Shown here piece after piece: positions 17,872 to 47,285 of a stretch of DNA of 64,000 bases. A program made the translations under genes and the position numbers. Numbering within the stretch: position 1 is the stretch's first letter; each line of letters opens with the position of its first letter. This stretch comes from Pseudomonas arcuscaelestis. Lineage in GTDB: Bacteria > Pseudomonadota > Gammaproteobacteria > Pseudomonadales > Pseudomonadaceae. Where the stretch lies: contig NZ_JACOPV010000003.1 of the NCBI RefSeq assembly GCF_016881005.1, forward strand, positions 186,001-250,000. The letters run 5' to 3'. Below the pieces are notes generated by a model, which saw nothing but the letters and a program-made list of their open reading frames with translations, searched no databases and was not told where the DNA came from.

Positions 17872-19020
17872 TCAGTGCGCGCCAGCCGCTTTGTTCAGGT
17901 CGCTTGGCGCCCACTGGGTGTACACACACGCATCGGATACCGCCCAGCGTACACTCACCTGATCACCAGGCTGCATCGGTATGCCCGCCGCAGACAGCGC
18001 CTTGACAGTCATCGCAGTGCCGCCCGGGGTGAGGACGCTGCACGTCTGGCTTTCACCCAGAAACAGCACTTCTCCGACCCGCGCCGTTACCTGATTCCAA
18101 CCGGCTGGCAGTGGTTCGTGCGCCGCTTGCTCAGTTGTCAGGGCCACGGCTTTTTCTGGCCGCACCATCAGCAACACCTCCTGGCCTTCAGCCAACCCTG
18201 GTGTCAGGCGCATGGCCAGGGGCTGGCCTTCGAAGCTCGCTGCACCATTGCCATGGGCGGCTACCCGCAGGAAATTGGAATTACCTAAAAAGGAGGCAAC
18301 AAAGGCATTCGGTGGGTTCTGGTAAAGGTCATAGCCGGTGCCCAGGCCAACGATCTTGCCGTGGCTGAAAATGGCGATGCGCTGGGACAGGCGCATGGCT
18401 TCTTCCTGATCGTGAGTGACATAGACGATGGTGATACCCAGGCGACGATGCAGTTGGCGCAGTTCGTCCTGCAGGTCTTCACGCAGCTTTTTGTCCAGCG
18501 CACCGAGCGGTTCGTCCATCAACAGAATGCGTGGCTCGTAGACCAGCGCCCGGGCAATCGCCACGCGCTGCTGCTGGCCACCGGACAGTTGCGCCGGACG
18601 CCGATGGGCGAAGCTGTCCAGTTGTACCAGCTTGAGCATGGCATCGACTTGTTTGTCGCGCTCGGCAGCACTGCGTTTGCGAATGGCCAAGGGAAAGGCG
18701 ATGTTGTCGCGCACAGACAGATGCGGAAACAGTGAATAGCGTTGGAACACCATGCCGATATCGCGCTTGTGCGGCGGCACGTTGACCAGCGACTGGCCAC
18801 TGACCAGGATTTCGCCGCTGCTCGGTGTTTCGAAGCCGGCAAGCATCGACAAGGTTGTGCTCTTGCCCGAGCCGCTGGAACCCAGAAAGGTGAGGAACTC
18901 GCCGTCCTGGATGTCGAGGTTGATGTCGTCCACCGCGGCGAAGTCGCCATAGTGCTTGTTCAGGCTACGCAGGCTGACCAGTGTCTTGGCGTGCTGGGAT
19001 TGGTTGAGGACTGCACTCAT
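17872..19020 (-). CDS. ABC transporter ATP-binding protein, spermidine/putrescine (PotA) type
   Basis: 382 residues. Walker A GSSGSGKST (about 50-58), signature LSGGQQQRVAIARAL, Walker B LLMDEPLGALD, H-loop YVTHDQEEAM, then a C-terminal TOBE region (about 280-365). The C-terminal extension is typical of PotA/FbpC-type ATPases. It is the last gene of a four-gene operon (binding protein, two permeases, ATPase), 19 bp after the second permease. The substrate (polyamine, or another cationic or carboxylated small molecule) is not determined. Confidence 0.92.
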   Translation of the reverse strand: MSAVLNQSQHAKTLVSLRSLNKHYGDFAAVDDINLDIQDGEFLTFLGSSGSGKSTTLSMLAGFETPSSGEILVSGQSLVNVPPHKRDIGMVFQRYSLFPHLSVRDNIAFPLAIRKRSAAERDKQVDAMLKLVQLDSFAHRRPAQLSGGQQQRVAIARALVYEPRILLMDEPLGALDKKLREDLQDELRQLHRRLGITIVYVTHDQEEAMRLSQRIAIFSHGKIVGLGTGYDLYQNPPNAFVASFLGNSNFLRVAAHGNGAASFEGQPLAMRLTPGLAEGQEVLLMVRPEKAVALTTEQAAHEPLPAGWNQVTARVGEVLFLGESQTCSVLTPGGTAMTVKALSAAGIPMQPGDQVSVRWAVSDACVYTQWAPSDLNKAAGAH

Positions 19021-19039: not shown

Positions 19040-19849
19040 TCAAGCGCTGACTTCGTTGCGCCGACGCAGGGCGGCGGCGATCACCATGACCAGCAGCGAC
19101 AGACCGATCAGCAACGTCGAGGCGACGGCGATAACCGGGGTCAGGTCCTGGCGCAGGGTGGTCCACATTTTTACCGGCAAGGTTTGCAGGGTAGGGCTGG
19201 CCATCATTACGCTGAGCACCACTTCGTCCCACGACACCAGGAAGGCGAAGAGGCCACCGGCGATCATGCCCGGACGGATCGCCGGAAAGGTCACCTTGAC
19301 GATCGCCTGCAGGCGCGAGGCGCCGCAAATCACGGCTGCATCTTCAATGGACTGGTCGAACAGCTTGAGCGAATTGATGATCGAGATGATGGTGAACGGC
19401 AGGGCGACGATGACGTGGCTAACCACGAAGGAAAACAGCGTGCCGGTGTAGCCCAGCTTGAGGAACAGGGCATAGACCGCCACGGCAATGATTACCAGCG
19501 GCACAATCATCGGCAGGGTGAACAGACCGTAGAGCATCTCGCGCCCGGGAAAACGTCCGCGCACCAGGGCAAAGGCGGTCGGCAGGCCCAAGGCAACGGC
19601 GCAGACGGTCGTTAGCAGCGCTACTTTCAGACTGGCGAGGGCGGCGTCCATCCACTCGGCGTTGGAGAAAAACTGGCCGTACCACTTCAGCGTCCAGCCC
19701 GGCGGCGGGAACACCAGCCATTGGGACGAGCCGAACGACAGCAGCACGATGAACACGATTGGCAGCAGCAGGAACAGTGCAATCAGCCCTGTGGTGGTGT
19801 ACAGGCCGTAACGCAAGCGCCGGCTCATGGCATTGGGTGTCAGGAGCAT
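19040..19849 (-). CDS. ABC transporter permease, PotC type
   Basis: 269 residues with six predicted membrane spans and the EAA loop (AAVICGASRLQAIVKVTFP) of binding-protein-dependent permeases. A GAGGTAAG ribosome site supports the 19849 start; Met8 is an alternative. It lies six bases after the first permease, so it is in the same operon. Confidence 0.9.
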   Translation of the reverse strand: MLLTPNAMSRRLRYGLYTTTGLIALFLLLPIVFIVLLSFGSSQWLVFPPPGWTLKWYGQFFSNAEWMDAALASLKVALLTTVCAVALGLPTAFALVRGRFPGREMLYGLFTLPMIVPLVIIAVAVYALFLKLGYTGTLFSFVVSHVIVALPFTIISIINSLKLFDQSIEDAAVICGASRLQAIVKVTFPAIRPGMIAGGLFAFLVSWDEVVLSVMMASPTLQTLPVKMWTTLRQDLTPVIAVASTLLIGLSLLVMVIAAALRRRNEVSA

Positions 19850-19855: not shown

Positions 19856-20779
19856 TTACCTCCCGTTGCTGTTGCCGACCGGGGATTCCGGTTGCAACTT
19901 CAGGTAGAAGTAGAACAGCAGCAGGGTGATGGCAATCAGCAACGCTGCAGCAGCGCTGGCCAGGCCCCAATTGAGGAACGATTGCACCTGCTGGACGATG
20001 AATTCAGGCAGCATCATGTTCTGCGCACCGCCCAGCAACGCTGGCGTCACGTAGTACCCCAGCGACATCACGAACACCATCAAGGCGCCGGAAAACAGCC
20101 CGGAACGGCACAGCGGCAGGAACACCTTGAAGAAGTTGGTCCAGGGGCTGGCGCCGCAGATCGAACCTGCCTGCAAGACCATCGGGTCGATGGCCTGCAT
20201 GGTGGCCTGCAGGGGCAGGACGATGAAGGGAATCATGATGTAGCTCATGCCGATGACCACGCCGGTGAGGTTGTGGACCATCTCCAGCGGCGCATCAATG
20301 ATGCCCAGTGCCATCAACACTTTGTTGATTACCCCCGACGCTTGCAGCAGTACCAGCCAGGAGTAGGTGCGGGCCAGCAGGCTGGTCCACATCGACAGCA
20401 GCACTATGTTCAACAGCCAGCGTCCCCAACCACGGGGCACTAGGGTGATCGCCCAGGCCAGGGGAAAGCCCAGCAGTACGCTGATCAGTGTGACCAGACC
20501 GGCGACCGAAAAGGTGTTGAACAGCACGCGAGCGTAGGCTGAGTTGGCGAACAGTTGCTCGTAGTTGCCAAGGCCGGGCACCGGTTCCAACACGCCGCGT
20601 AGCAGCAGGCCGATCAGCGGCGCGAAAAAGAACAGACCGAGGAACAGCAAGGCCGGGAGCAGGTTGCGGCTACCGCGCCAGCGCTGGCGAAAGGGGATCG
20701 TGTGCGTCACTGTCGCTCCCTGGGTGCCCTTGCCGGGGGCTCCCGATTCAGCGTGCAAGGCATTGATCGCGACTTTCAT
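19856..20779 (-). CDS. ABC transporter permease, PotB type
   Basis: 307 residues from ATG 20779, whose first four bases overlap the stop of the binding-protein gene (ATGA), a sign of translational coupling. The longer frame to 20791 lies inside that gene. Six membrane spans and an EAA-like loop (AGSICGASPWTNFFKVFLP) fit a PotB-type subunit. Confidence 0.9.
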   Translation of the reverse strand: MKVAINALHAESGAPGKGTQGATVTHTIPFRQRWRGSRNLLPALLFLGLFFFAPLIGLLLRGVLEPVPGLGNYEQLFANSAYARVLFNTFSVAGLVTLISVLLGFPLAWAITLVPRGWGRWLLNIVLLSMWTSLLARTYSWLVLLQASGVINKVLMALGIIDAPLEMVHNLTGVVIGMSYIMIPFIVLPLQATMQAIDPMVLQAGSICGASPWTNFFKVFLPLCRSGLFSGALMVFVMSLGYYVTPALLGGAQNMMLPEFIVQQVQSFLNWGLASAAAALLIAITLLLFYFYLKLQPESPVGNSNGR

Positions 20780-21801
20780 TTGACCAGCCACTCATTCCAG
20801 CGGGTGGCGATGGCCGGCCCGTTCTTGGCCCAATAGGCGAAGTCCAGGGTGACTTGGTCCTGTGCGTAGGCGGTTGGCAGGTTAGGTGCCAGCTCGGGTT
20901 TGAGCAGGCTGATGCTGTCAAGGTTTACCGGGGCGTAGGCAGTGAGATTGGTGAACTCGGCCTGGCCTTTGGCGCTGCTGGCCTCGGCGAGAAATTTCAT
21001 TGCCGCCTCTTTGTTTTTCGCGCCCTTGGGGATAACCAGAAAGTCGGCCATGACCAGGTTCTGTTTCCAGCTCACGCCGACCGGCGCGCCGTCTTGCTGC
21101 AGGGCATAGACGCGACCGTTCCAGAACTGGCCCATGCTCACTTCACCCGAGGCCAGCAGTTGCTGGGACTGAGCGCCGCCGCCCCACCAAACGATGTCTT
21201 TTTTGATGGTGTCGAGCTTCTTGAAGGCGCGGTCCAAGTCCAGCGGATAGAGCTTGTCGGCGGCCACGCCGTCTGCCAGCAGGGTCAGTTCCAGCACGCC
21301 GGGGCTTGGCCATTTGTACAAGGCACGTTTGCCGGGGTAGGTGCTGGTGTCGAACAGTGCGCTCCAATCCTGCGGCTTGTTGGCGCCGAGCTTGCCTTGG
21401 TTGTAGCCCAGAACGAAGGAGAAGAAGAATGAACCGACGCCATGATCGGAAACGAAACGTGGGTCGATACGGTCACGCTTGATGGTGTTGAAATCGAGCG
21501 GCTCAAGCAGGCCCTCGGCTGCGGCACGCAAGGCGAAGTCGGCTTCGACATCGACCACGTCCCATTGCACGTTGCCGCTTTCGACCATGGCTTTGAGCTT
21601 GCCATAGTCTGTCGGGCCGTCCTGGACCACGCGGACCTTGCTGGCATCACTGAAGGGTTCGGCCCAGGCCTGCTTCTGCGCATCCTGGGTGCTGCCGCCC
21701 CAGCTGACGAAATTCAGGCTGTCGGCGGCCAGGGCAACCTGGCAGGTCAATGTCAGCAGGCTGGCAGCCAGCACTGCGCTTGCGCGTTTGGTGAACAGCA
21801 T
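20776..21801 (-). CDS. ABC transporter periplasmic binding protein, PotD type
   Basis: 341 residues from ATG 21801, with GAGGGCG upstream. A signal peptide ends near residue 25 (VALA-A). The mature part begins SLNFVSWGGSTQDAQKQAWA and has the type II binding-protein pattern of the spermidine/putrescine family, including a WGGG loop near the middle. It is the first gene of the transporter operon. About 150 bp upstream lies TGGTATTCCA, one mismatch from the TGGTATACCA palindromes before the RibBA-like and DUF1185 genes, so it may share their regulator. The ligand is unknown. Confidence 0.9.
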   Translation of the reverse strand: MLFTKRASAVLAASLLTLTCQVALAADSLNFVSWGGSTQDAQKQAWAEPFSDASKVRVVQDGPTDYGKLKAMVESGNVQWDVVDVEADFALRAAAEGLLEPLDFNTIKRDRIDPRFVSDHGVGSFFFSFVLGYNQGKLGANKPQDWSALFDTSTYPGKRALYKWPSPGVLELTLLADGVAADKLYPLDLDRAFKKLDTIKKDIVWWGGGAQSQQLLASGEVSMGQFWNGRVYALQQDGAPVGVSWKQNLVMADFLVIPKGAKNKEAAMKFLAEASSAKGQAEFTNLTAYAPVNLDSISLLKPELAPNLPTAYAQDQVTLDFAYWAKNGPAIATRWNEWLVK

Positions 21802-21946
21802 AGGTACGCCCTCGTTTCTTGTGTTTATCAGCGGGCTTTGTGTTGCCCGCCTTGTAGTGGGGAGCATCAATTTCAAGCGTGGTAGCGGCTGGCGGGCCTG
21901 TCAGGTACCGGTCAGCAGATTATTCGGTCTACGGGATATCATATTA

Positions 21947-21956
21947 TGGTATTCCA
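21947..21956. promoter_or_regulatory. Imperfect GntR-type site upstream of the ABC operon
   Basis: TGGTATTCCA, preceded by TTA, differs at one base from the perfect palindrome TGGTATACCA found at 23453 and 44804. It lies in the 284-bp gap between the binding-protein gene and the small gene at 22086. Confidence 0.45.
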
Positions 21957-22309: not shown

Positions 22310-23419
22310 TCAGGCAGTGAAGGGGATGCTGTGCACCACTTCCAGGTCGTAGCCCGTCAACCCGGCATATTTGAGCGGTGGTCCCAGGTGGCGCAGCTTG
22401 CCCACGCCAAGATCCTGGAGAATCTGTGCGCCTGTTCCAACCTCTGAATACGTGCGCGCCTGCGCGCGCTGGTAAGGGCGGGGCGGTTGGGTCAAGTGTG
22501 GCACGCGCTCGAGCAGGGCCTGGGAGGATTCGTGGTTGGCCAGAATGACCACCACGCCATTGCCTTCTGCGGCAACTTTCTCCAGTGCCGCCCACAAGGT
22601 CCAGTTGGCAGGGCCTGCGTACTCGGCGCCGACCAGGTCGCGCAGTGGGTCAATCACATGCACACGCACCAACGTTGGCTGCTCTCGGCGAATGTTACCC
22701 ATGACCATAGCCATATGCACGCCGCCTTCGACACAGTCCTCGTAGGTCACCAGACGAAAGACGCCATGCACGGTAGGCAGTTCGCGTTCACCGATGCGCT
22801 TGACTGTTTGTTCGTTGCTCAGCCGGTAATGGATCAGGTCGGCGATGGTGCCGATCTTGATTCCGTGTCGGGCAGCGAACACTTCCAGATCCGGGCGACG
22901 GGCCATGGTGCCGTCGTCGTTGAGCACTTCGACAATGACTGAGGCTGGGCTGAACCCGGCCAGGCGGGCCAGGTCGCAGCCGGCTTCGGTGTGCCCGGCG
23001 CGGGTCAATACACCGCCTTCCCGGGCGCGCAGCGGGAAGATGTGTCCCGGTTGTACCAGGTCTTCGGCGCGAGCATTCGCTGCCACCGCGGCGGCGACGG
23101 TACAGGCGCGATCAGCGGCGGAAATGCCTGTGGTAACGCCTCGGGCCGCCTCGATCGACACAGTGAATGCGGTGCTGAACGCGCTGCCATTGGCGGGCAC
23201 CATTTGTTCAAGGCCAAGTCGCTGACAGTGCTCATCGGTCAAGGTGAGGCAGATCAGCCCACGTGCCTCGCGCGCCATGAAGCTGATGGCCTGAGCGTCG
23301 CAGCGCTCGGCGGCGATCAGTAGGTCGCCTTCGTTTTCTCGGTCTTCGTCGTCCACCAACAGGACCATCTTGCCTTGGCGATAGTCCTCAAGGATTTCTT
23401 CGATGCTGTTGAAGGGCAT
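22310..23419 (-). CDS. RibBA-like protein: DHBP synthase fused to a degenerate GTP cyclohydrolase II domain
   Basis: 369 residues. Residues about 1-200 are 3,4-dihydroxy-2-butanone-4-phosphate synthase with the usual signatures ([21 protein letters not shown], the [14 protein letters not shown] helix). The C-terminal half looks like the GTP cyclohydrolase II fold ([15 protein letters not shown]), but where RibA has three zinc-binding Cys (C-x10-C-x-C) this protein reads [11 protein letters not shown], with none. So it can probably make only the riboflavin precursor from ribulose 5-phosphate. A perfect TGGTATACCA operator lies 34 bp upstream, shared with the divergent DUF1330 gene. No FMN riboswitch leader is visible. 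This looks like a pathway-specific flavin-supply paralogue, not the housekeeping ribBA. Confidence 0.87.
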
Positions 23420-23450: not shown

Positions 23451-23467
23451 TATGGTATACCATAATA
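23451..23467. promoter_or_regulatory. GntR-type operator between RibBA-like and DUF1330 genes
   Basis: TATGGTATACCATAATAC contains the perfect palindrome TATGGTATACCATA (23451-23464). Seventeen bases (ATGGTATACCATAATAC) are identical to the site at 44803-44819 before the DUF1185 operon. FCD-type GntR regulators commonly bind TNGTNNNACNA-like sites. Confidence 0.75.
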
Positions 23468-23494: not shown

Positions 23495-23788
23495 ATGAAG
23501 GCTTACTGGATTGCCCATGTCGACGTCAGCGACCCGGTGCACTATCAGCAATACACCCAGCGGGCGCCGGCAGCCTTCGCGGCCTTTGGTGGTCGCCTGC
23601 TTGCCCGAGGCGGGCGCAGCGAAGCGATGGAAGGTCGACCAACGCCGCAACGTAGCGTGGTTATCGAGTTCGATTCCTACGCGCAAGCCGTGGCCTGTTA
23701 TCGCTCGGAGCAGTACCAGCAGGCGTGCAGTTATCGTCAGGGGGTAGCCCGGGTCGAAGTGATCATCGTCGAGGGTGTCGAACCCTAG
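23495..23788 (+). CDS. DUF1330 family protein
   Basis: 97 residues from ATG 23495, with GGGAG seven bases upstream; the longer frame runs back through the operator. The sequence MKAYWIAHVDVSDPVHYQQY, then an FGGRLLARGG turn and a VVIEFDSYAQAVACY strand-helix, is the DUF1330 pattern, a small ferredoxin-like (dimeric alpha/beta barrel) domain. Members are often found in catabolic clusters, but no activity is established. It is divergent from the RibBA-like gene across one GntR-type site and may be co-transcribed with the reductase gene 93 bp downstream. Confidence 0.85.
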   Translation: MKAYWIAHVDVSDPVHYQQYTQRAPAAFAAFGGRLLARGGRSEAMEGRPTPQRSVVIEFDSYAQAVACYRSEQYQQACSYRQGVARVEVIIVEGVEP

Positions 23789-26745: not shown

Positions 26746-26751
26746 GGGGCG

Positions 26752-33589: not shown

Positions 33590-33621
33590 AGATGCCTCGT
33601 GGTCTGGGGTGTGCTGTTAGA

Positions 33622-34580: not shown

Positions 34581-34636
34581 GGCGCTGACGGTCCGGGGGC
34601 GACCGTCGGGATCATAGTGCGCCCCCGCTATTTACC

Positions 34637-35893: not shown

Positions 35894-36126
35894 GCCCGGG
35901 TCTCCACGTGCATACCCTCGCGGCACAGGGTTTGGCAGGCCAGGCGTCGGCGGCCGTCGATGGTTACCCGGCACTCCTGGCAAATGCCCATGCCGCATAG
36001 CGGCGCACGGCGTTGTCCACCAACTGCGGTGCGCGAGCAGCCATCACCGCCCAGTGCCAGGGCTGCGGCCACGCTGGTACCTTCAGCCACAGACAGTGGA
36101 CGGCCATCGAGAATCAAGTCAGGCAT
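35890..36126 (-). CDS. Small [2Fe-2S] subunit of the dehydrogenase
   Basis: 78 residues from ATG 36126 ([20 protein letters not shown]). Cys residues in LCGMGICQECRV and LACQT form a ferredoxin-like cluster site, as in the N-terminal part of SoxA/HcnA-type subunits. It overlaps the genes on both sides by 8 and 4 bp, showing a tightly coupled three-subunit oxidoreductase. The longer frame is a shadow of the neighbouring gene. Confidence 0.87.
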   Translation of the reverse strand: MPDLILDGRPLSVAEGTSVAAALALGGDGCSRTAVGGQRRAPLCGMGICQECRVTIDGRRRLACQTLCREGMHVETRA

Positions 36127-37234: not shown

Positions 37235-38163
37235 GGGCGGATGCCCCAGGCGAACGGGTCGTCTTCCTGAAGGATGAGCGTGGCCTCGGCACTGATGTGC
37301 GCGCGTCCGCGAATGGTGGGAATGATGCGTTCGCCAGCGGTTTCGAACGAACCTTCGAAGACACTGCCGATCACGCTGGCCTGGTGCCATGGCTGGCCGG
37401 GTTGGAGTTTGCTGTCGGCGGCCAGGCAAGCGAGCTTGGCGCTGGTGCCGGTGCCACAGGGCGAACGGTCGTAGGCTTTGCCGGGGCAGAGTACAAAGTT
37501 GCGGCTGTCTGCCGCTGGGTCGTCGGCAAACAGTTCGATATGGTCGATCAGGCCACCGTCTTCGCCGCGAAAGCCTTGTTCATCCAGTGCCTGCTGCACC
37601 GCGTAGGTGTAAGCGGTCAGCGCCTCGATGTTATCGCCCGCCACTTGCAGGCCGTGATCGGCGATGAGAAAGAACCAGTTGCCGCCCCAGGCCACATCGC
37701 CAACTACCTGGCCTATGCCTGGAACCTCCAGCGACAGGTCCTTGCGGTAGCGGTAGGCGGGTACATTGCGCACGCTGACAGAGTGGTCTTCATGCAGCGT
37801 TGCCTGCACGGTACCCACGGGGGTTTCGATGCTGTGCACACCTGGGCCGATACGTCCCAGGTGCGCGAGGGACACCACCAGGCCGATGGTGCCGTGGCCG
37901 CACATGCCCAGGTAGCCTGTGTTGTTGAAGAAAATCACTCCGGCGCAGGCGCTAGGGTCAACCGGCTCGCAAAGCAGGGCGCCGACCAGTACATCGCTGC
38001 CACGCGGTTCGAGCATGCAGGCGCTGCGCCATTGATCGTGTTGTTGGGCAAGAAGCTGGCGGCGCTCGGCCATGCTGCCCTTGCCTAGGGCAGGGAAACC
38101 GTCGGTGACCAGGCGGGTGGGCTCACCGCCGGTGTGGGAGTCGATCACGGTAATGCGTTTCAT
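37231..38163 (-). CDS. lhpA: 4-hydroxyproline 2-epimerase
   Basis: 310 residues of the proline racemase family with both catalytic Cys: Cys88 in GYLGMCGHG and Cys236 in DRSPCGTGT. This two-Cys pattern and the neighbours support 4-hydroxyproline 2-epimerase, which converts trans-4-hydroxy-L-proline to cis-4-hydroxy-D-proline, rather than the dehydratase form with Ser at the first site. It is the first gene of the operon epimerase - oxidase - ferredoxin - FAD/Fe-S subunit (- AraC). The frame stays open upstream into the repeat element; ATG 38163 ([17 protein letters not shown]) is the family start although the ribosome site is weak. Confidence 0.92.
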
Positions 38164-38295
38164 CGGGAGGCCGCGTCCGTTCTGGGGAGTGATCGACAGA
38201 GTGGCTTGTTGTCGGGGGCGCCGGCTTGATGCCTTTGAATCACCTGAACGACGAAATCGGCACAGTAATGACGCTGGGTCTTTTTGGAGGGTGTG

Positions 38296-38575
38296 GCTTG
38301 GGTGTCGATGGGCATATCCGTTTGATGGGGTGGCGCTACTGGCTGGTTTCGGCCTTACGGCGACCCACTTTGTGTCGCGGTGTATGGACTGGACACATGG
38401 TGGACATGTGTACGGAGACATAGTTGACACATTATCGCCGGCCATCCATGGCCGTCGCCCCACTAGGCAAGGGTTCCACTCGGCCTGCTGAAGGGACGAT
38501 TTGTGGCGTCTGCACGATTTGAGTAGGTAGAAGCACAGCAACAGCAACGGCAACGGCGAGGCGCTGGTGTTCAGC
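38296..38575 (+). repeat. Dispersed Pseudomonas-type intergenic repeat, copy 2
   Basis: It has the same two ends and orientation as copy 1 at 17470-17805. The middle third is different: about 60 bp (38378-38436) replaces the section with CTGCGCTCCGGG. The right end (GGCCATCCATGGCCGTCG to the CAACAG-rich tail) is nearly identical to copy 1. Confidence 0.8.
38378..38436. mobile_element. Possible IS-end remnant inside repeat copy 2
   Basis: The segment has spaced short repeats: TGGACTGGACACATGG, TGGACATGTGTACGG, AGACATAGTTGACACA. Such TGTCCAC/TGTCAAC-type strings resemble the ends and flanks of IS481/IS3-like elements in Pseudomonas. No transposase is present. Identification is tentative. Confidence 0.3.
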
Positions 38576-38696: not shown

Positions 38697-39371
38697 TTAT
38701 GTCGGGGTTTGCGGCAGGTGCTCGAACAGTGTCCTGCATACACCCGCAATGTGCTCATCCAACAACCTCACCGCGCGTTCGACATCTTTGGCGCGGCAGG
38801 CGTCGAGGATTTCACGGTGCTCGTGATCGGCGCGTTCCTTGCCCGCCGACAGGCTCATCTGCATGCGCAGGTAACGTTCCAGCTTGTCGTTCACCGAACG
38901 AATCATATTCACCAGAAATGGCCGCTGCGCCGGTTCGTACAGGCAGGCATGCAGTTCCCAGTTCAGTTCAGCCCAACGCCCGACGTCGTTCTCGCCGACG
39001 AACTCCTGGCAGATGCGTTCGGCGCGGGCGAAGGTTTCTTCGTTCATGTTGGGGATGGCCAGGCGCAGCGCCTTGTCTTCAAGCAGCATGCGCACCTCGA
39101 ACATTTGCGCCAGTTCAGGCTCCGACATACGTGTGACCATTGCCCCGCGATTGCGCTGGAACATCACCAGCCCCTCGGCCTCCAGGCGTTTGAGTGCCTC
39201 GCGCACAGGGATCTTGCTGACGTTGAACTGACGGGCGATGTCGTCCTGGCGAATCGGTTCGTCTTCGCCGAAATGCCCGGCGATGATCGCATCGCGCAGA
39301 TGACGGGTGATGATTTCCGAAGTCGAGGGCGTATTGCCCAGGTCCGGGGCGTTGAGGCGGGGTACGGTCAC
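38697..39371 (-). CDS. GntR-family (FCD) transcriptional regulator
   Basis: 224 residues starting at GTG 39371. The winged helix-turn-helix covers about 20-80 (ITRHLRDAIIAGHFGEDEPI, then ARQFNVSKIPVREALKRLEA), followed by an all-helical FCD ligand domain with the usual His/Asp metal-site pattern. It has its own promoter with a TGGTATACGA site about 30-40 bp upstream, so autoregulation is likely. By position it could control the hydroxyproline sites (TCGTATACGA), the DUF1185 regulon (TGGTATACCA), or both. Confidence 0.92.
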   Translation of the reverse strand: MTVPRLNAPDLGNTPSTSEIITRHLRDAIIAGHFGEDEPIRQDDIARQFNVSKIPVREALKRLEAEGLVMFQRNRGAMVTRMSEPELAQMFEVRMLLEDKALRLAIPNMNEETFARAERICQEFVGENDVGRWAELNWELHACLYEPAQRPFLVNMIRSVNDKLERYLRMQMSLSAGKERADHEHREILDACRAKDVERAVRLLDEHIAGVCRTLFEHLPQTPT

Positions 39372-39475: not shown

Positions 39476-40039
39476 TTAACGGATGAAATGCACCTTGCCG
39501 GTGTCGTCGTTGCCCATGTAGATCCCGTATACGCCAGCCTGGCGCTCCTCGATGTAGCGTTCGAGGATCTGCCTGATGGCTGGGTAGTAGATCTCGTCCC
39601 AGGGAATATCCTCTGGGGCGAAGAACCGGTAGTCGAGGGTTTCCGGGCCGTATTGGCCGGTAACTTCCAGGGCAATGGCGCGAAAGATGATGTACACCTC
39701 GCTGATGGTCGGCACACTGAAAATAGAGTACGGCGAGACGATTTCACCGCGTACGCCACTTTCTTCCCAGACCTCACGCAGCGCCGCCTGTTCAGTGGTC
39801 TCGCCGCTTTCCATGAAACCTGCTGGCAACGTCCAGGTGCCGGGACGCGGCGGTATGGCGCGCTGGCACAGCAGGTACTTGCCATCCTGCTCGATGATGC
39901 AGCCGGCAATGATCTTCGGGTTCAGGTAATGGATGTAGCCACAAGCGCTGCACAGCAAGCGCTCGTGAGTATCGCCGCTGGGCCGTCCCTGGTGTAGCGC
40001 GGCAGTGCAATGCGGGCAGTAACGGGGGACGGCGGGCAT
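39476..40039 (-). CDS. NUDIX hydrolase with zinc ribbon
   Basis: 187 residues. An N-terminal zinc ribbon (CPHC near residue 8, CSACGY near 31) and the NUDIX box (GFMESGETTEQAALREVWEE followed by SG) match the NADH-pyrophosphatase-like branch, which cleaves NADH, ADP-ribose or FAD-type dinucleotides. It starts two bases after the GntR gene stop (TGATCATG), so the two are translationally coupled and it is the last gene of the DUF1185 operon. A role in cofactor repair or flavin nucleotide turnover would suit the flavin theme of the regulon, but that is inference. Confidence 0.88.
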   Translation of the reverse strand: MPAVPRYCPHCTAALHQGRPSGDTHERLLCSACGYIHYLNPKIIAGCIIEQDGKYLLCQRAIPPRPGTWTLPAGFMESGETTEQAALREVWEESGVRGEIVSPYSIFSVPTISEVYIIFRAIALEVTGQYGPETLDYRFFAPEDIPWDEIYYPAIRQILERYIEERQAGVYGIYMGNDDTGKVHFIR

Positions 40040-40041
40040 GA

Positions 40042-40797
40042 TCAGCGTCCTATGCGGGGTTCTTTGAGTGCAATGGGCGCAGCGATGTCGCGCACCTTGC
40101 TGTTGTCGTTCTGTTTCAGACGCAGGTATTCAAGGGCGACCTTGGCCGCGGCACGTACGTGATCGACCGATGCCTGGTGGGCAGCCAGGGGGTCGCCGCT
40201 CTTGATCGCTTCAACGATCTTGACCATTTCCTGGTTGCTCGCCCCGCGACGGTTTTCCTGGGAGACCGAGGTGGCACGCAGGTAGCTGATACGTGCCTGC
40301 AACTGGCGCAGTTGCGTGGCTGCCACATGGTTGCCGGAGCCTTCGAGCAGTACATCGTAGAAGCCCTGCACCGAGTCGATCACCTGTTGCAGTTCACCTT
40401 CTTCGAGGGCCTGGCGGTTCACCTCCAGGGCTTTTTCCAGGGCGCGGATGTCCTTGGCCTTGGCGTTCAGGGTGAACAGCTGGACGATCAGCCCTTCGAG
40501 CACGCAACGCAGTTCGTAGATATCACGGGCGTCTTCCAGGGTGATGATGGCCACGCGCGGCCCCTTGGCGTCGGCGAATTCCACCAGGCCTTCGGATTCC
40601 AGGTGGCGCAGGGCTTCACGCACCGAGGTGCGGCTGACGCCAAGACGGTCGCACAGATCGCGTTCCACCAGACGATCGCCCGGCAAGAGCTGGAAGCTCA
40701 TGATCGCTCCGCGCAATTTGTCGAGCACGATTTCACGCAGGGTTACGGGGTTGCGGTTGACCTTGAAACTGTCGTCGAGGGGTTGGCGTTTCATCAT
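40042..40797 (-). CDS. GntR-family (FCD) transcriptional regulator, operon-encoded
   Basis: 251 residues from ATG 40797; an adjacent ATG at 40794 is equally possible. It has an N-terminal winged helix (VTLREIVLDKLRGAIMSF, then CDRLGVSRTSVREALRHLES) and an FCD domain. It lies 87 bp after the carboxymuconolactone-decarboxylase-like gene and is coupled to the NUDIX gene. As the regulator inside the DUF1185 operon it is the best candidate to bind the TGGTATACCA sites. Confidence 0.92.
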   Translation of the reverse strand: MMKRQPLDDSFKVNRNPVTLREIVLDKLRGAIMSFQLLPGDRLVERDLCDRLGVSRTSVREALRHLESEGLVEFADAKGPRVAIITLEDARDIYELRCVLEGLIVQLFTLNAKAKDIRALEKALEVNRQALEEGELQQVIDSVQGFYDVLLEGSGNHVAATQLRQLQARISYLRATSVSQENRRGASNQEMVKIVEAIKSGDPLAAHQASVDHVRAAAKVALEYLRLKQNDNSKVRDIAAPIALKEPRIGR

Positions 40798-40884
40798 CTG
40801 TGCTCTGAAATTGGCTGTTCTCACAAGCGTCGCCGAGCACCTCGAATCGCGGTGCTCCGTGCGGCGGTTTCGAACAGCCAGTCG

Positions 40885-41274
40885 TTAACTGGTTGCCTCC
40901 AAGTCGGCTTCGGCGAACGCCTCGCGGGCCAGACGGAAACTGTCCACGGCCGCAGGTACACCGCAGTAAATGCCGACTTGAAGCAAAATTTCACGTATTT
41001 GCTCACGACTCAGACCGTTACGCAAGGCGCCGCGTATGTGCAACTTGAGTTCGTGGGGGCGGTTGAGTGCCGAAATCATCGCCAGGTTGATCATGCTGCG
41101 CTCTTTGAGCGACAAACCGTCGCGACCCCAGACGTGGCCCCAGCAGTATTCAGTGACCAGTTCCTGTAGCGGGCGGGTGAAGTCGTCGGCGTTATCGATC
41201 GATTTGTTGACGTAGGCTTCGCCAAGCACCTGGGTGCGGATTTTCAAGCCTTTTTGATACTTCTCGTTGCTCAT
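40885..41274 (-). CDS. Carboxymuconolactone decarboxylase family protein
   Basis: 129 residues from ATG 41274 with GGAG upstream. The core, KERSMINLAMISALNRPHEL then HIRGALRNGLSREQIREILL, is the PcaC-like helical domain. It lacks the CxxC pair of AhpD-type peroxidases, so a decarboxylase or isomerase-like role is more likely. It lies in an operon with an alpha/beta hydrolase, a combination reminiscent of PcaD-PcaC. The true substrate is unknown. Confidence 0.87.
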   Translation of the reverse strand: MSNEKYQKGLKIRTQVLGEAYVNKSIDNADDFTRPLQELVTEYCWGHVWGRDGLSLKERSMINLAMISALNRPHELKLHIRGALRNGLSREQIREILLQVGIYCGVPAAVDSFRLAREAFAEADLEATS

Positions 41275-41335
41275 GGATCGGCTCCGAAAAAATGGGCGTG
41301 CAACCAAGGGTGTGGCTCACGCCCCTCAAGGGAAA

Positions 41336-41821
41336 TCAGCACAGCGGCGGCAGGGCGCCAAGCTTGCCTTTGTGGTAGACCATCGGTGTAACGGGCTGAT
41401 CGGGCAGGATCAGGTTCATCACCGAGCCGACGATGATGGCGTGGTCGCCACCGTCGTATTCGCGCCACAGCTCACACTCGATGATTGCCGTGGCATTGCT
41501 CAGTAGCGGATTGCCCAGTTCGCTCACGTGCCATTCGATGCCGTTGGCCTTGTCCTTGCCTTTGCCGGCAAAGGCATAGGCCTCGGCGGTTTGCCCGGCC
41601 GCCAGCAAGTGAATGGCAAATTGCTTGCTATCACGCAGAATCGGATAGGTGTCGGAAGCGTAGTTAGGGCAGAACAGCACCAGCGCCGGCTCGATCGACA
41701 GCGCGCTGAAGGCGCTGGCGGTGATCCCGACGATGCCACCTTCGGCGTCCAGGGTGGTAACCACCGTAACGCCGGAAGGAAAGGAGCCCATCACGTCTTT
41801 GTAGATGCCAGGTTCGATCAT
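41336..41821 (-). CDS. Flavin reductase family protein
   Basis: 161 residues with the split-barrel FMN-binding pattern of HpaC/NtaB-type reductases: MGSFPSGVTVVTTLD, then GITASAFSALSIEPALVLFC and FAIHLL. These enzymes make free reduced FMN or FAD for a separate oxygenase. No oxygenase gene is in the operon or elsewhere in the window, which is odd. It starts 12 bp after the aldehyde dehydrogenase gene. Confidence 0.9.
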   Translation of the reverse strand: MIEPGIYKDVMGSFPSGVTVVTTLDAEGGIVGITASAFSALSIEPALVLFCPNYASDTYPILRDSKQFAIHLLAAGQTAEAYAFAGKGKDKANGIEWHVSELGNPLLSNATAIIECELWREYDGGDHAIIVGSVMNLILPDQPVTPMVYHKGKLGALPPLC

Positions 41822-41833
41822 GGCGCAGGTCTC

Positions 41834-43315
41834 CTAACGCATGACAAAGGGGTCGGGCATGGGCGCTGTCGAGAGGTTGATCCACACCGTTTTCAATTCG
41901 GTGTAGGCCAGTACCGAGTCGATGCCGCTCTCGCGTCCGTAGCCGCTGTTCTTGAATCCGCCAATGGGAGCCATGGCTGACACCGCGCGGTAGGTGTTGA
42001 CCCAGATGATCCCTGAGCGTACATCCCGGGCCAGACGATGGGCGCGGCCCAGGTCACGGGTCCAGATGCCGGCTGCCAGGCCAAATTGCGAGTCGTTGGC
42101 CATGGCCAGCGCCTCGGCCTCGGTCTTGAAGCGAATGACTGACGCCACCGGGCCAAAGACTTCTTCCTGCATGATGGTCATCGAGTTGTTGTCACACTCG
42201 AACAGGGTTGGCTCGTAGAACCAGCCTTCGCTGTCAATCTCGGCCCGCTTGCCACCCAGGCGCAGCTTGGCGCCTTCGGCTTGAGCGGCGGCAACCAGGC
42301 CTTCGACCACCGCCAACTGCTGGGCCGTCGCCATCGGGCCCATTTCGCTGGCGTCATCCTGCGGGTTGCCGATCTTGATGCGCTTGGCACGTTCAACCAG
42401 GCGCTCGACGAATGTGTCGTAGATTTCGTCTTGCACCAGTAAGCGTGAACCGGCAACGCAGCTTTGGCCGGAGGCGGCGTAGATCCCGGCGACTGCGCCG
42501 TTGACGGCGCTGTCCAGGTCGGCATCGGCGAAGATGATGTTCGGCGATTTGCCGCCCAGCTCCAGCGAAAGCTTGGCGAAGTTCTCGGCACTGCTGCGCA
42601 CTACATGGCGTGCGGTGGCGGCGCCGCCAGTGAAGGCGATCTTGCGCACCAGCGGATGGCGGGTGAGGGCTGCGCCAGTGCTTGGGCCGTAACCGGTAAC
42701 GACGTTGACCACGCCCGCCGGAAACCCGGCTTCAAGGGCCAGGCGGGCAAGCTCCAGAATGGTTGCCGAGGCGTGTTCCGAAGGCTTGAGAACAATCGTG
42801 TTGCCCGCCGCCAGCGCGGGCGCGAGCTTGATTGCGGTAAGGTACAGCGGACTGTTCCAGGGAATGATCCCGGCGACCACGCCAATCGGCTCATGCACCG
42901 TGTAGGCAAACAGGTCGGGCTTGTCCAGCGGCAGGGTGCCGCCTTCGAGCTTGTCAGCCAGGCCTGCGGTGTAGTGGAAGAATTCTGGCAGGTAGCCCAC
43001 CTGACCGCGGGTTTCACGGATCAGCTTGCCGTTGTCGCGGCTTTCGAGCTGCGCCAGGCGCTCCTTGTTGTCGCTGATAAGGTCGCCCAGACGGCGCAGC
43101 AGCTTGCCTCGGGCGGTGGCTGTCAGGCTGCGCCAGGCCGGATTGTCGAAGGCGCGCTGTGCAGCCTGGACGGCAAGTTCGACATCAGCTTCATCGGCAT
43201 CGGGCAGTTGTGCCCAGGCGCGCGCCGTGGAAGGGTCGAGGCTGTCGAAGGTCTTGCCGCTGACGGCACCGAGCCATTGGCCGTCGATGCACATCTGAAA
43301 GCTTGCGAGTGTCAT
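41834..43315 (-). CDS. Aldehyde dehydrogenase
   Basis: 493 residues of the NAD(P)-dependent ALDH family. Visible are IPWNSPLYLTAIKLAPALAA, the FTGGAATARHV nucleotide loop, the Glu in LELGGKSPNII, and the catalytic Cys in GQSCVAGSRL. It overlaps the hydrolase gene stop by four bases. It is closest in pattern to betaine/4-hydroxymuconic-semialdehyde type enzymes, but the substrate is not determined. It is clearly different from the KGSADH at 24975-26555. Confidence 0.92.
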   Translation of the reverse strand: MTLASFQMCIDGQWLGAVSGKTFDSLDPSTARAWAQLPDADEADVELAVQAAQRAFDNPAWRSLTATARGKLLRRLGDLISDNKERLAQLESRDNGKLIRETRGQVGYLPEFFHYTAGLADKLEGGTLPLDKPDLFAYTVHEPIGVVAGIIPWNSPLYLTAIKLAPALAAGNTIVLKPSEHASATILELARLALEAGFPAGVVNVVTGYGPSTGAALTRHPLVRKIAFTGGAATARHVVRSSAENFAKLSLELGGKSPNIIFADADLDSAVNGAVAGIYAASGQSCVAGSRLLVQDEIYDTFVERLVERAKRIKIGNPQDDASEMGPMATAQQLAVVEGLVAAAQAEGAKLRLGGKRAEIDSEGWFYEPTLFECDNNSMTIMQEEVFGPVASVIRFKTEAEALAMANDSQFGLAAGIWTRDLGRAHRLARDVRSGIIWVNTYRAVSAMAPIGGFKNSGYGRESGIDSVLAYTELKTVWINLSTAPMPDPFVMR

Positions 43316-44145
43316 GCAACGATCCCCTTGGCTGAGTCGGAGAGGGTTTGGGCGTGCCCGAGGAAGTCGCGCAGCATCTGGTTGACCAGGCGCGGCGACT
43401 CTACTGGCATCATATGCCGTTGTTCAGCGAGCACCACGCTCTGTGCCCCGGGGATACGCCGGGCCAACTGATGCGTCATGTCCGGTGTCGAACCCAAGTC
43501 CCATTCACCGGTGGCGATCAGACAGGGGGCCTGGATACTGCCCAGGTCTTCGGTGCGGTACATATCCTGGGTGGCGAACAATTCGTAGGTGGTCAGGTAG
43601 CCCTGCGGGTCGTTGCTCGCCAGCGTCTGGCGCAGGGCGGCAATCTGTGCAGGGTTGGCTGCCTGGTATTCGCGGCTGAACCAGCGTGCCAATGCGGCTT
43701 CGGCGTTGGCATCCGGCCCATGTTCGGCGGCCTGGGCTGTGCGTGCGATAACCCCGGCGCGTTGTTCCACGCTACGGTCGAACACGCTATTGAGTACCAC
43801 CAGCGCAGACAGTCGCTGCGGATAGTGCAAGGCGAAGGCACGCGCCACCAGTCCGCCCATGGAAAAACCGATGATGGTCGCCTGGGGCAATTGCAGGTGG
43901 TCGAGCAGCTCGGCCAGTTGCTCGGCATAGCCGGGCAGGCCGCAACCGGGTTGTGGGCGCGGGCTCTGGCCATGGCCGAGCATGTCGTAGGCAATCACCC
44001 GGTAGTCGCTGGCCAGGCCAACGATCTGCCCGCCCCACATTTCTTTGTTCAGGCCCACCCCATGGATCAGTACCACGGGGTGGCCTTGGCCGGTCGCCAG
44101 ATAACTGGTGCCGGCCGGGGTGCGTTCAGCAGCGGGCTGAATCAT
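43312..44145 (-). CDS. Alpha/beta hydrolase (enol-lactonase-like)
   Basis: 277 residues. The nucleophile elbow is GFSMGG near residue 95, the oxyanion segment is LIHGVGLNKEMWG near 27-39, and the C-terminal His is in EQRHMMPVESP. The DMLGHGQSP motif is common to 3-oxoadipate enol-lactonases and ring-cleavage C-C hydrolases. It lies 25 bp after the DUF1185 gene and overlaps the ALDH gene by four bases. Confidence 0.9.
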   Translation of the reverse strand: MIQPAAERTPAGTSYLATGQGHPVVLIHGVGLNKEMWGGQIVGLASDYRVIAYDMLGHGQSPRPQPGCGLPGYAEQLAELLDHLQLPQATIIGFSMGGLVARAFALHYPQRLSALVVLNSVFDRSVEQRAGVIARTAQAAEHGPDANAEAALARWFSREYQAANPAQIAALRQTLASNDPQGYLTTYELFATQDMYRTEDLGSIQAPCLIATGEWDLGSTPDMTHQLARRIPGAQSVVLAEQRHMMPVESPRLVNQMLRDFLGHAQTLSDSAKGIVA

Positions 44146-44170
44146 CGGTCGCTCCTAGGCATATTTATTG

Positions 44171-44761
44171 TTATTGGGCCTTTTCGGCTGCCAGTTCTTC
44201 CAGGTCGATGTAGCGGTTGCCAATGCGTGGATGCAGGCGGCCACCATCGGCGCAACCCAGAACCACGACGATTTCGTCGGCGCGTGGTGCGTCTTCGATC
44301 TTCATCTCCAGGGTGATGTAGTGCGAGCGCAGGCCTTCGTCATCCTTGTGCATCATCGGGATCTGGATCGAGGTGCCAGGGCCTCCGCGCTTGTTGGTGA
44401 AACTGAGGTAGCTCTTGGCGTTGACTGCTTCGCGGTAGTGGTTGCCGAAGCGCAGGGTATGGATGACAGCGGATGCGTGTTCGATTTCGCCGTCGGCGCC
44501 GACTACGGCGGCTTTGCCATAGGCTTCGATTTTGTTTGCACCGCCAATCGCGGCGCACAGGCGCTCGACCATTTGTGCCCCGAGTTCCGAGCAGTTAGCG
44601 CGGATTTCTGGTTTCAGGTCTTCGACAAAGCCGCGGCCCAACCATGGGTTTTTCATGACAACTGCCAGGCCCACCATGGTCACCGGGGTGTCGGTAGCCT
44701 TGCCACCTTCTATCAAGGTTTCTTCGACGTAGGTGACGATTTTGCGGATTTCAAAACTCAT
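44171..44761 (-). CDS. DUF1185 'amino acid synthesis' family protein
   Basis: 196 residues from ATG 44761 with AGGAG upstream; the longer frame crosses the operator. The sequence begins MSFEIRKIVTYVEETLIEGG and contains VVMKNPWLGRGFVEDL and GNHYREAVNAKSYLSFTNKR, the pattern of PF06684-type proteins. No activity is established for the family. It is the first gene of the seven-gene operon and has a perfect TGGTATACCA palindrome 43-52 bp upstream. Confidence 0.87.
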   Translation of the reverse strand: MSFEIRKIVTYVEETLIEGGKATDTPVTMVGLAVVMKNPWLGRGFVEDLKPEIRANCSELGAQMVERLCAAIGGANKIEAYGKAAVVGADGEIEHASAVIHTLRFGNHYREAVNAKSYLSFTNKRGGPGTSIQIPMMHKDDEGLRSHYITLEMKIEDAPRADEIVVVLGCADGGRLHPRIGNRYIDLEELAAEKAQ

Positions 44762-44802
44762 GGATGGCTCCTGTGGAAGGGGATACTTTGTCTTGTTGTC
44801 TG

Positions 44803-44819
44803 ATGGTATACCATAATAC
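44803..44819. promoter_or_regulatory. GntR-type operator before the DUF1185 operon
   Basis: ATGGTATACCATAATAC includes the perfect palindrome TGGTATACCA (44804-44813). All 17 bases are identical to the site between the RibBA-like and DUF1330 genes about 21 kb away. Confidence 0.78.
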
Positions 44820-45009: not shown

Positions 45010-46056
45010 TTATTTACGTGCTTCGAGAATCAGGTTGAAGGGGGTTTCGGTCGCTCTTCTGAAACTGCTGAAACCAGCCTCTTGGAACACCGCACGTAAA
45101 CGCGCTTCGCCTGCTTGCGCGCCCAGGCCCAGGCCTACTTCCTGGGACAGCGAGTTAGGCGTACAGATGAAAGTTGATACGGCGTAGAAGAGACGACCAA
45201 CGGGAGTGCCATTGTCGTCCAGGCTGTCATTGGCAAAGGGTTCGACGAGCATTACCGAGCCACCCGGTTTGAGTGCTGCAAAGGCACGGCGAGCGGCACC
45301 CACCGGATCTCCCATGTCATGCAGGCAGTCGAAGTAACAGATCAGGTCGAACTCATTGTCGGGAAAGTCCTTGGCACTGGCCTCGAAGAATTGCACGCGG
45401 TCCCCCAGGCCTTCCTCCAGCGCATGTTGATTCGCCACATCAATGGAGGGCGCGTGGAAGTCAAACCCGAGGAATTTCGAGCTTGGGAAGGCCTTGGCCA
45501 TGATTATTGATGAGGCGCCCCGACCGCAGCCGATATCCGCTACCTTGGCTCCCGCCTGCAGTTTTTCAACCACACCGCTAAGGGCCGGTAACCATTCGGC
45601 CACCAGATGAGCGCGGTAGCCTGGGCGGAAAAGGCGTTCGGTGCCGCTGAACATACAGGGGTGGTGATCGCCCCACGACAGCCCACCATCACCGCGCATC
45701 GCCGTGACTAACTTGTCTTTGTCGTGGAAAAGCGATGCTATGACTGACGCTCCTCCGGCTGCGTATACCGGCGAGTCTTCAATGGCCAACGCCATTGCTT
45801 GCTCCTGCGGTAAGCGAAAGCGTCCGTCCTGGTGCTCCATATAGCCCGCTGCTGCTTGGGCACTGAGCCACTCGCGTACCAGGCGGGGATTGCAGTTGGT
45901 CTTTCGTGCTAGCTCATCGGGTGTAATGAACTGACTGTCGGCCATGGCCCGGTACAGGCCCACTTCGTCACCAAGGATCAGGTTGGCCATTAGTGCGGCA
46001 GCACCCATATCGCTGATGAGTTTGCCCATGAACTGATTGAGTTTTGCTTCGTCCAT
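45010..46056 (-). CDS. Class I SAM-dependent methyltransferase with N-terminal winged helix
   Basis: 348 residues from ATG 46056 with AGGAG upstream. Residues about 1-85 are a helical/winged-helix domain (ITPDELARKTNCNPRLVREW). Residues about 170-300 hold the SAM-binding motif VADIGCGRGASSIIMAKAFP, then GFDFHAPSI and the post-motif FDLICYFDCLHDMGDP. The combination resembles Rv2258c-like proteins and O-methyltransferases of natural-product pathways. It stands alone, and the substrate is unknown. Confidence 0.88.
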   Translation of the reverse strand: MDEAKLNQFMGKLISDMGAAALMANLILGDEVGLYRAMADSQFITPDELARKTNCNPRLVREWLSAQAAAGYMEHQDGRFRLPQEQAMALAIEDSPVYAAGGASVIASLFHDKDKLVTAMRGDGGLSWGDHHPCMFSGTERLFRPGYRAHLVAEWLPALSGVVEKLQAGAKVADIGCGRGASSIIMAKAFPSSKFLGFDFHAPSIDVANQHALEEGLGDRVQFFEASAKDFPDNEFDLICYFDCLHDMGDPVGAARRAFAALKPGGSVMLVEPFANDSLDDNGTPVGRLFYAVSTFICTPNSLSQEVGLGLGAQAGEARLRAVFQEAGFSSFRRATETPFNLILEARK

Positions 46057-46150
46057 GACGTGTTCTCCTATAATGAAGTCCAACGCTAACGGGGTTGCCA
46101 CAACAGTCGGCAATCCCGGTCCTTTTGCTCGCGCAATCATTCAGTATAGT

Positions 46151-46744
46151 TCAGCGCGCCTGCCCCGAAGCCCGCTCACGCAGGGCTTTGCTGACCTGGG
46201 CCTGGATTTCATAGGCGGGCGCTTCCACAGCGTTGAAATCGCGCGAATAGCGTCTGGCAAACTCTGCCACGCCCCACTGTTGATACTGCTGCACATGGTG
46301 CAACTCGTGGGCCCAGAGGGCGACGTTGTCCTGGGCATCGGCTTCGTTGCGAAAGACAATGATGTCGATCAGGGTCACGGCGTTGACATCGGGGTTCTGC
46401 AACAGCGCGTTGGCGCTGTCCAGGGCTTGTTGGTCACCGACCTTGTAGCGCGCCGCGTCCAGTACCTGAAAGTCATAGTAAGACTCAAGCTGGGCACGGA
46501 TATGCAGGGGGATCGGCAGGATGTTGTTGCTGGCGGCGCTGTCGCGGGCCTGTTGCAGGGCTGCTGCCAGGGTGCTGCTGGCGATACGACCGAGGTCGTC
46601 GAGCATGATTCCGGCCTGGCCAGGGTCGAAGGGCGAACAGATACAGCTGCCCAGGCAAACTTCATACTGACCCGTGGGGCAAGCGCCAAACGCATGAAAC
46701 GGTGCGAGCAGGGCAACGCCAAGCAGCAGGTCAACGGCTTTCAT
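46151..46744 (-). CDS. Secreted HExxH protein, DUF4157-like
   Basis: 197 residues from ATG 46744. A signal peptide (MKAVDLLLGVALLAPFHAFG) is followed by a Cys-rich segment with four Cys (ACPTGQYEVCLGSCICSP) and a helix with WAHELHHVQQYQQWG, an HExxH zinc site as in DUF4157 / eCIS-core putative metallopeptidases. No eCIS genes are near. The start overlaps the TetR gene end by 14 bp, so the two are probably one operon. Periplasmic or surface metalloprotease is a reasonable but unproven call. Confidence 0.75.
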   Translation of the reverse strand: MKAVDLLLGVALLAPFHAFGACPTGQYEVCLGSCICSPFDPGQAGIMLDDLGRIASSTLAAALQQARDSAASNNILPIPLHIRAQLESYYDFQVLDAARYKVGDQQALDSANALLQNPDVNAVTLIDIIVFRNEADAQDNVALWAHELHHVQQYQQWGVAEFARRYSRDFNAVEAPAYEIQAQVSKALRERASGQAR

Positions 46745-47285
46745 GCAGGGCCCCGGCGAGAAACTCACGGGAGGCGTGGAGCACTTCTTGTTGGCTGGAT
46801 TCATTGGCCAGCATGCGTGCGATCACCAGCGCCCCTACGCACTGGCTAAGCAGGGCCCAGGCCAGGTCCGGGTCTTGCAGGGTGTCGGCCCAGGCTTGTT
46901 GCAAGGTGCGCAACCAATGCTCGGCTTCCTCGCGCACGGGCAGCGGTGCCTGGGCGATTTCAGCGCCAAGGGCAGGGATGGCGCAGCCACCTTCGGCATT
47001 GTGCACATGGGCCAGGCTCAGGTAGTGGTCCAGGCAACGTTCTAGCCGCTGACGGTTCATCGGTTGCTGGGCCATGGGGCTTAGCGACAATTCACGGCGC
47101 ACCACTTCGGTAAACAGATCGTCCTTGGACGGGAAATGATTGTAGAAGGCCCCGCCAGTCAAGCCAATAGCCTTCATCAGGCCCGCCACACCGGTAGCGT
47201 TGAAGCCCCCGCGCTTGGCCAAGGCCCCGCTGCTTTCCAGCAGTTTCTGCCGGGTTTGCTCTTTATGGTGGGTGGAGTAGCGCAC
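46731..47285 (-). CDS. TetR-family repressor
   Basis: 184 residues with an N-terminal TetR helix-turn-helix (TRQKLLESSGALAKRGGFNA, then GLTGGAFYNHFPSKDDLF). It is divergent from the SDR/isomerase operon across 91 bp that contain repeated CGTTTAC elements, so it likely controls both directions. Confidence 0.92.
   Translation of the reverse strand: MRYSTHHKEQTRQKLLESSGALAKRGGFNATGVAGLMKAIGLTGGAFYNHFPSKDDLFTEVVRRELSLSPMAQQPMNRQRLERCLDHYLSLAHVHNAEGGCAIPALGAEIAQAPLPVREEAEHWLRTLQQAWADTLQDPDLAWALLSQCVGALVIARMLANESSQQEVLHASREFLAGALHESR

Follow-up and report, generated by a model that had tools for sequence, protein, structure and literature searches.

The closest described counterparts of the system analysed here are those that degrade trigonelline (N-methylnicotinate). 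In the excerpts of the literature available, the trigonelline ring is opened by TgnA/TgnB (PMC8269262), TgnB falls within a network of luciferase-like domains (figure legend, PMC11354265) and TgnF stimulates the TgnE-dependent oxidation of succinate semialdehyde in Acinetobacter baylyi ADP1 (PMC7913881). Similar excerpts report that trigonelline supports better growth of Ruegeria pomeroyi than homarine does (PMC8269262), and that wild-type S. meliloti grows on trigonelline whilst a derivative lacking pSymA does not (PMC4207669). A homologue of TgnF, the DUF1185 protein HcdD, occurs in a catabolic operon of Pseudomonas mandelii 7HK4; its substrate differs, as this operon serves 7-hydroxycoumarin degradation, and according to the same excerpt its authors' attempts to see a stimulating effect failed (PMC7913881). 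Here, we analysed a 64,000-nucleotide stretch of the Pseudomonas arcuscaelestis assembly GCF_016881005.1 (contig NZ_JACOPV010000003.1, positions 186,001 to 250,000; hereafter the window), which carries a seven-gene operon that in all likelihood represents the downstream half of a tgn-type trigonelline degradation regulon.

The operon occupies positions 39476-44761 of the minus strand and, apart from one 4-bp overlap, the gaps between its genes do not exceed ~61 bp. It begins with a TgnF-like DUF1185/AA_synth protein (44171..44761; PF06684, E = 4.8e-71), followed by an alpha/beta hydrolase that is the candidate TgnD-like enzyme (43312..44145; PF00561, E = 1.8e-30), an aldehyde dehydrogenase (ALDH) that is the candidate TgnC-like enzyme (41834..43315; PF00171, E = 2.9e-173), a flavin reductase with a TgnA-like reductase domain (41336..41821; Flavin_Reduct, PF01613, E = 2.6e-42), a PcaC-like (CMD) protein (40885..41274; PF02627, E = 1.5e-22), an FCD-family GntR regulator (40042..40824; PF00392 and PF07729) and a NUDIX hydrolase with a Zn ribbon (39476..40039; PF00293, E = 2.8e-20), whose Nudix box was judged by eye to be intact. 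In this order the spacing is 25 bp, the 4-bp overlap, 12 bp, 61 bp, 60 bp and 2 bp, with the 61-bp value assuming ATG 41274, within the open reading frame (ORF) 40885-41307, as the start of the PcaC-like gene. For DUF1185, translation was assumed to begin at ATG 44761; a longer version of this ORF, reaching 44830, would span the operator described below. ORF coordinates and Pfam bore out the seven tightly spaced genes and the domain types given in an earlier note on this DNA. A five-sequence DUF1185 profile matched the structures 2qtp (E = 3.5e-44) and 3byq (E = 5e-31), and a scan of the sequence for sigma-70 promoters and terminators returned no more signals than were found in shuffled sequence.

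The earlier note had also reported that the window encodes no oxygenase, and this held. The assembly contains five luciferase-like monooxygenase (LLM, PF00296) genes, none of which lies on the window contig (C23), and oxygenases other than LLMs were judged on the 21 window proteins scanned with Pfam. The notion of a system without an oxygenase is false, as an LLM oxygenase is encoded on another contig (C4) of the same assembly. This TgnB-like LLM (locus L015, 9141-10184, minus strand) is accompanied by a second flavin reductase (10275-10757, minus strand), 70.9% identical to the window reductase, and an NCS1 permease (about 11086-12492, plus strand) is divergent from the pair; amongst the five LLM genes, this LLM alone had a match to the window reductase in its fetched surroundings. 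The promoter of the reductase–LLM pair carries ATTACGGTATACCATCAGACA and that of the permease TTGGAATACCATAATATG, each one mismatch from the operator of the window operon (ATTATGGTATACCATCAGACA); the two sites are at 10815 and 10987 of L015. Three such one-mismatch matches are grouped on this contig, the third of which (L015, 9089) lies downstream of the LLM and was set aside with no role given. The two-component LLM/reductase pair agrees with the expectation that the window reductase serves a separate monooxygenase, and its one-mismatch operator with the prediction of an oxygenase under the same operator elsewhere. Together they support the proposal of a catabolic operon, probably for an N-heterocycle, with a two-component flavin monooxygenase.

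The operator is the palindrome TGGTATACCA, located at 44804..44813 and separated from the DUF1185 start codon by 42 bp. A second exact copy (23453..23462) stands between divergent genes encoding RibBA and a DUF1330 protein, and these two places, both in the window, are the only exact ones in the 6.28-Mb assembly. An operator-like site, TGGTATTCCA (21947..21956), is found upstream of an ABC transporter. Because its matches were fewer than those of the reversed control, both exact (2 versus 5 places) and with up to one mismatch (79 versus 90 per strand), the operator shows no genome-wide enrichment; the case for it is position before genes, not abundance. We assessed this in related loci, taking the best 80 of at least 580 DUF1185 relatives recovered in a genome scan with a five-sequence DUF1185 alignment; 79 are titled Pseudomonas and one Pantoea, and being kin they are not independent events. 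The exact operator was present upstream of DUF1185 in 80/80 loci, and across them 131 exact copies were counted, whilst the reversed control gave none and seven other 10-mers between 0 and 2. It also occurred between RibBA and DUF1330 in all 50 loci whose fetched stretch includes this pair (49 exact), whilst one-mismatch forms preceded the ABC binding protein in 45/46 loci (0 exact) and the NCS1 permease in 23/23. An exact copy lay directly upstream of 2/24 LLM genes. No operator was found upstream of the hydrolase, ALDH, window-type reductase, GntR or NUDIX genes in any of the 80 loci, and the count for the second reductase was set aside as its row mixes both paralogues. One-mismatch matches 86-238 bp upstream of the PcaC-like gene (19/64) were treated as coding sequence, since the window copy (41373-41382) is inside the reductase gene. 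A further 28 one-mismatch matches in 1.44 Mb were at no counted gene. Separately, a second FCD-GntR gene of the window (38697-39371) has a one-mismatch operator before it at 39402, and 3/5 relatives have such a site at the same gene.

Gene content was likewise conserved. Using 50% query coverage, E 1e-10 and 60% identity as the criterion for presence, the hydrolase, ALDH, reductase, GntR and NUDIX genes were each detected in 80/80 loci, as was DUF1185 by construction, and the NCS1 permease was detected in 23/80. The LLM occurred in 24/80 loci (21 of the 69 with full flanks); in all 24 it shared the strand of DUF1185 and lay upstream of it, at a distance of 232-640 bp in 21 and 2.9-7.8 kb in three. 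As the LLM stands beside DUF1185 in these other genomes, the window holds a split form of an elsewhere contiguous cluster. A second ALDH was located between the reductase and PcaC-like genes in 16/80 loci. A genome of the same family (L123) carried RibBA, DUF1330, NCS1, the second reductase and the LLM, with no DUF1185 operon in 19 kb. Wider draws of genomes matched the DUF1185 query in 6/274 across the class and the LLM query in 4/145 across the order, own genome included in both. A search of two families matched the Pseudomonas LLM in 24/116 genomes and the Acinetobacter LLM in 7/151, with displayed matches 40-60% identical; the A. baylyi ADP1 sequence was not found in either family (116 and 151 genomes). 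Two further loci (L013, 935-2037; L014, 938-2040) carry tandem pairs of divergent DUF1185 genes, 35-40% identical to that of the window, with no other operon gene matched in 3.5 kb.

Outside Pseudomonas, the core set was found in other families of the class, and the gene set was syntenic in Gammaproteobacteria, Alphaproteobacteria and on one Arthrobacter plasmid. Searches of plasmids matched 326 records with the LLM and 342 with DUF1185, from nearly identical genera, mostly Rhizobium and Sinorhizobium; in the records examined, the DUF1185 member is annotated just as 'amino acid synthesis family protein'. The operator preceded 8/9 scanned non-Pseudomonas clusters, in exact form at five (L018, L121, L122, L127 and L128) and with one mismatch at three (L016, L124 and L126), and was not found at the ninth, the Arthrobacter locus (L125). 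The cluster on S. meliloti pSymA (L126, strain ABS7) sits between nodL/noeB and nifT in the order DUF1185, hydrolase, reductase, LLM, ALDH, NIPSNAP and then an ABC transporter. It shares with the window system a GntR match, the DUF1185, hydrolase, reductase, LLM and ALDH genes, the ABC importer and a one-mismatch operator before DUF1185, but differs in its NIPSNAP gene and 312-aa reductase, and no PcaC, RibBA, NCS1 or separate NUDIX match was detected in 25 kb. The ABC transporters beside this and the R. etli cluster are 48-60% identical to that of the window. R. etli p42c carries an S. meliloti-like set plus an annotated succinate-semialdehyde dehydrogenase, which is also annotated in the Arthrobacter cluster, and Leisingera holds the core gene set. 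In Acinetobacter (an unannotated part of an A. baumannii record), the core set was accompanied by an NCS1 permease (56%), a second ALDH and, adjoining the latter, a PcaC-like gene 73% identical to that of the window. Across the Acinetobacter, S. meliloti, Leisingera and R. etli clusters, the hydrolase after DUF1185 was 33-38% and the ALDH after the LLM 55-56% identical to the window proteins, and a GntR relative (31-43%) stood beside each of five plasmid-record clusters. In the Arthrobacter dokdonellae cluster, from another phylum (plasmid pDCT5; L125, 2342-13068), the LLM is 74% identical to that of Pseudomonas whilst the remaining matched genes are 27-52% identical, which suggests that its oxygenase was acquired horizontally. 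This cluster also encodes a riboflavin kinase, a NUDIX protein, a tautomerase and a reductase to which a SnoaL domain is fused, and its DUF1185 genes number two.

An LLM with a flavin reductase, a DUF1185 protein and an ALDH with an alpha/beta hydrolase are all encoded in the assembly. The tgn cluster of A. baylyi ADP1 is alike, in the partial descriptions at hand, in its luciferase-like oxygenase with a flavin reductase, its succinate-semialdehyde-directed pathway and its DUF1185 protein. It reportedly also shares the ALDH and the hydrolase (TgnC and TgnD). The system described here differs from it in being divided over two contigs, in having separate reductase and NUDIX genes, an extra reductase and RibBA in the regulon, and in lacking a second ALDH in the operon. 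The description of the operon as uncharacterised and perhaps new had to be given up in light of the published accounts of TgnA/TgnB and TgnF, as excerpted, and of the same gene set being syntenic elsewhere, including on S. meliloti pSymA. The seven-gene find is real but mostly ordinary, and is very probably a split new member of a known pathway.

According to the proposed mechanism, the TgnB-like LLM would open the pyridinium ring of trigonelline using reduced flavin from the TgnA-like flavin reductases, the TgnC-like ALDH would oxidise the ring-opened product, and the TgnD-like hydrolase would split the oxidised product into formate, methylamine, CO2 and succinate semialdehyde. These roles of TgnC and TgnD and the list of products are those that Perchat and co-workers are said to have reported in 2018 (PNAS). 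A succinate-semialdehyde dehydrogenase, possibly general and encoded elsewhere, would then yield succinate for the tricarboxylic acid cycle with the help of the TgnF-like DUF1185 protein, and the PcaC-like protein may act as the decarboxylase of a formyl-acid intermediate. Trigonelline is the likely substrate for the gene set in at least 80 loci, nearly all titled Pseudomonas, and because plants make this compound, the regulon could plausibly serve nutrition in the rhizosphere.

The hydrolase and PcaC-like protein had previously been likened to the end of a ring-cleavage pathway, and PcaD- and PcaC-type models are indeed among their best NCBIfam matches, as would be expected of a new pathway ending in beta-ketoadipate-like lactonase and decarboxylase steps. 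That resemblance stands, but not at the level of curated cut-offs, which the PcaC-like protein missed narrowly (152 versus 155.7 bits, TIGR02425) and the hydrolase by more (172.6 versus 255.85 bits for the PcaD-type model). The PcaC-like gene was detected in 64/80 related loci and, as it was not found in the other 16, is not essential; given also that the gene set fits the tgn pathway, we regard a beta-ketoadipate-like ending as very improbable. The pyrimidine ring-opening Rut pathway likewise draws on an LLM, a flavin reductase, an alpha/beta hydrolase and a permease, and the Pyr pathway for plain pyridine combines a PyrA-type LLM with an amidase and a succinate-semialdehyde dehydrogenase. 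To our knowledge, however, DUF1185 and ALDH are not part of Rut, and scores against RutF (66.1 versus 254.75 bits) and RutD (90.8 versus 238.5 bits) were far under the cut-offs. We regard a Rut-like or Pyr-like pathway as exceedingly improbable.

Several observations weigh against the trigonelline assignment. The assembly is a 6.28-Mb draft in 88 contigs with 4.95% estimated contamination, and for this reason the window contig and the LLM contig are not proved to come from one organism. A second ALDH is absent from the window operon; two that the assembly encodes outside it share 61-62% identity with the second ALDH of the Acinetobacter cluster and, judging by this similarity, could act as TgnE. 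The likeness to the ADP1 cluster rests on descriptions, with the A. baumannii record as the sequence stand-in. The window reductase, at 161 aa, is shorter than those of the Leisingera, Sinorhizobium, R. etli and Acinetobacter clusters (308-312 aa), and one locus (L017) is an exception to the gene set, as its 17 kb gave matches to DUF1185, the reductase and the ALDH and none to the LLM or the hydrolase. No tgn pathway or operon in Pseudomonas was found amongst the open-access listings and excerpts consulted. TIGR03105, which we take to represent a methylamine-assimilation type enzyme, gave nine matches in the own assembly, none over the cut-off. This last result, the LLM being just 48-50% identical to the Acinetobacter, S. 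meliloti, Leisingera and R. etli enzymes, and the second reductase paralogue (71%) would also fit the same chemistry and gene family acting in Pseudomonas on a related N-heterocycle, such as another N-methylpyridinium or a nicotinate derivative. That substrate shift seems quite unlikely to us, as the core set and operator are conserved, the rhizobia have the ABC importer at 48-60% identity and, in the excerpt available, S. meliloti requires pSymA for growth on trigonelline (PMC4207669). The pSymA requirement itself does not single out the tgn-like cluster of this replicon as the cause, and DUF1185 proteins occur in another pathway too, as the excerpt on HcdD indicates (PMC7913881).

The trigonelline regulon would extend beyond the operon and its oxygenase. 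Because the operator is kept at their promoters, the ABC transporter (17872-21876) and RibBA/DUF1330 (22310-23788) of the window probably belong to the system. The transporter, encoded on the minus strand, comprises a solute-binding protein (20776..21876; PF13416), 60% identical to that beside the S. meliloti and R. etli clusters, two permeases, 59-60% (19856..20791; PF00528) and 49-58% (19040..19849) identical to one and the other permease of these two rhizobial clusters, and an ATPase with a TOBE domain (17872..19020; PF00005/PF08402), 48-50% identical to theirs. RibBA (22310..23419, minus strand; PF00926/PF00925), an enzyme of riboflavin precursor synthesis proposed to supply flavin, scored 796.9 bits against NF009132, over the cut-off of 693. 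Its RibB half passes TIGR00506, whilst GTP cyclohydrolase activity is doubtful because the RibA half (33.3 bits) is far under the TIGR00505 cut-off of 205.85. The DUF1330 protein (23495..23788, plus strand; PF07045, E = 1.4e-35) has a 51% match that adjoins the Acinetobacter cluster. With the operator as the link, the dispersed oxygenase, importer and RibBA genes would form a single regulon. The FCD-GntR protein, the candidate operator-binding regulator, is predicted to bind TATTATGGTATACCATAATA and would probably control both halves, the ABC importer, the NCS1 permease and RibBA.

The NUDIX gene can be linked to the flavin reductase, since the two are fused in some clusters and split in the window. 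The C-terminal half of the long reductases aligned with the window NUDIX protein (alignment and BLASTP, the E-values of which refer to a ten-sequence set), and hhalign of the two families, built from alignments of six and three sequences, gave a probability of 99.2 (E = 7e-20). With Pfam, only the N-terminal reductase domain was recognised, a NUDIX domain being called in 0/6 long reductases (L017, L122, L124, L126, L127 and L128); a seventh, from the Arthrobacter cluster, has a SnoaL domain in place of the NUDIX-related part. The Nudix box is kept in the window protein and missing from the C-terminal half of the long reductases. As a tentative and rather doubtful possibility, the regulon may possess its own flavin economy. 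RibBA would raise riboflavin supply and the NUDIX protein would be the freed, intact-box version of a domain that long TgnA-type reductases carry in fused, degenerate form, maybe sensing substrate or flavin and gating the delivery of reduced flavin mononucleotide (FMNH2); in Pseudomonas, this could have allowed the reductase to duplicate and the substrate range to shift.

Between the two exact operators lies a probable hydroxyproline/proline-racemase catabolic region (24975-38553), in which Pfam identified an ALDH (24975-26555), a DHDPS (26797-27714) and a Pro_racemase (27838-28866), and where visual inspection suggests that ORF 37231-38553 is another racemase. The operon is immediately preceded by a methyltransferase with an Rv2258c-like winged-helix domain (45010-46140), which is probably outside the system because it occurs in only 4/80 related loci, without an operator. 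Finally, a small protein with an eCIS_core domain (46151-46804; PF13699, E = 6.3e-12) adjoins a TetR regulator.

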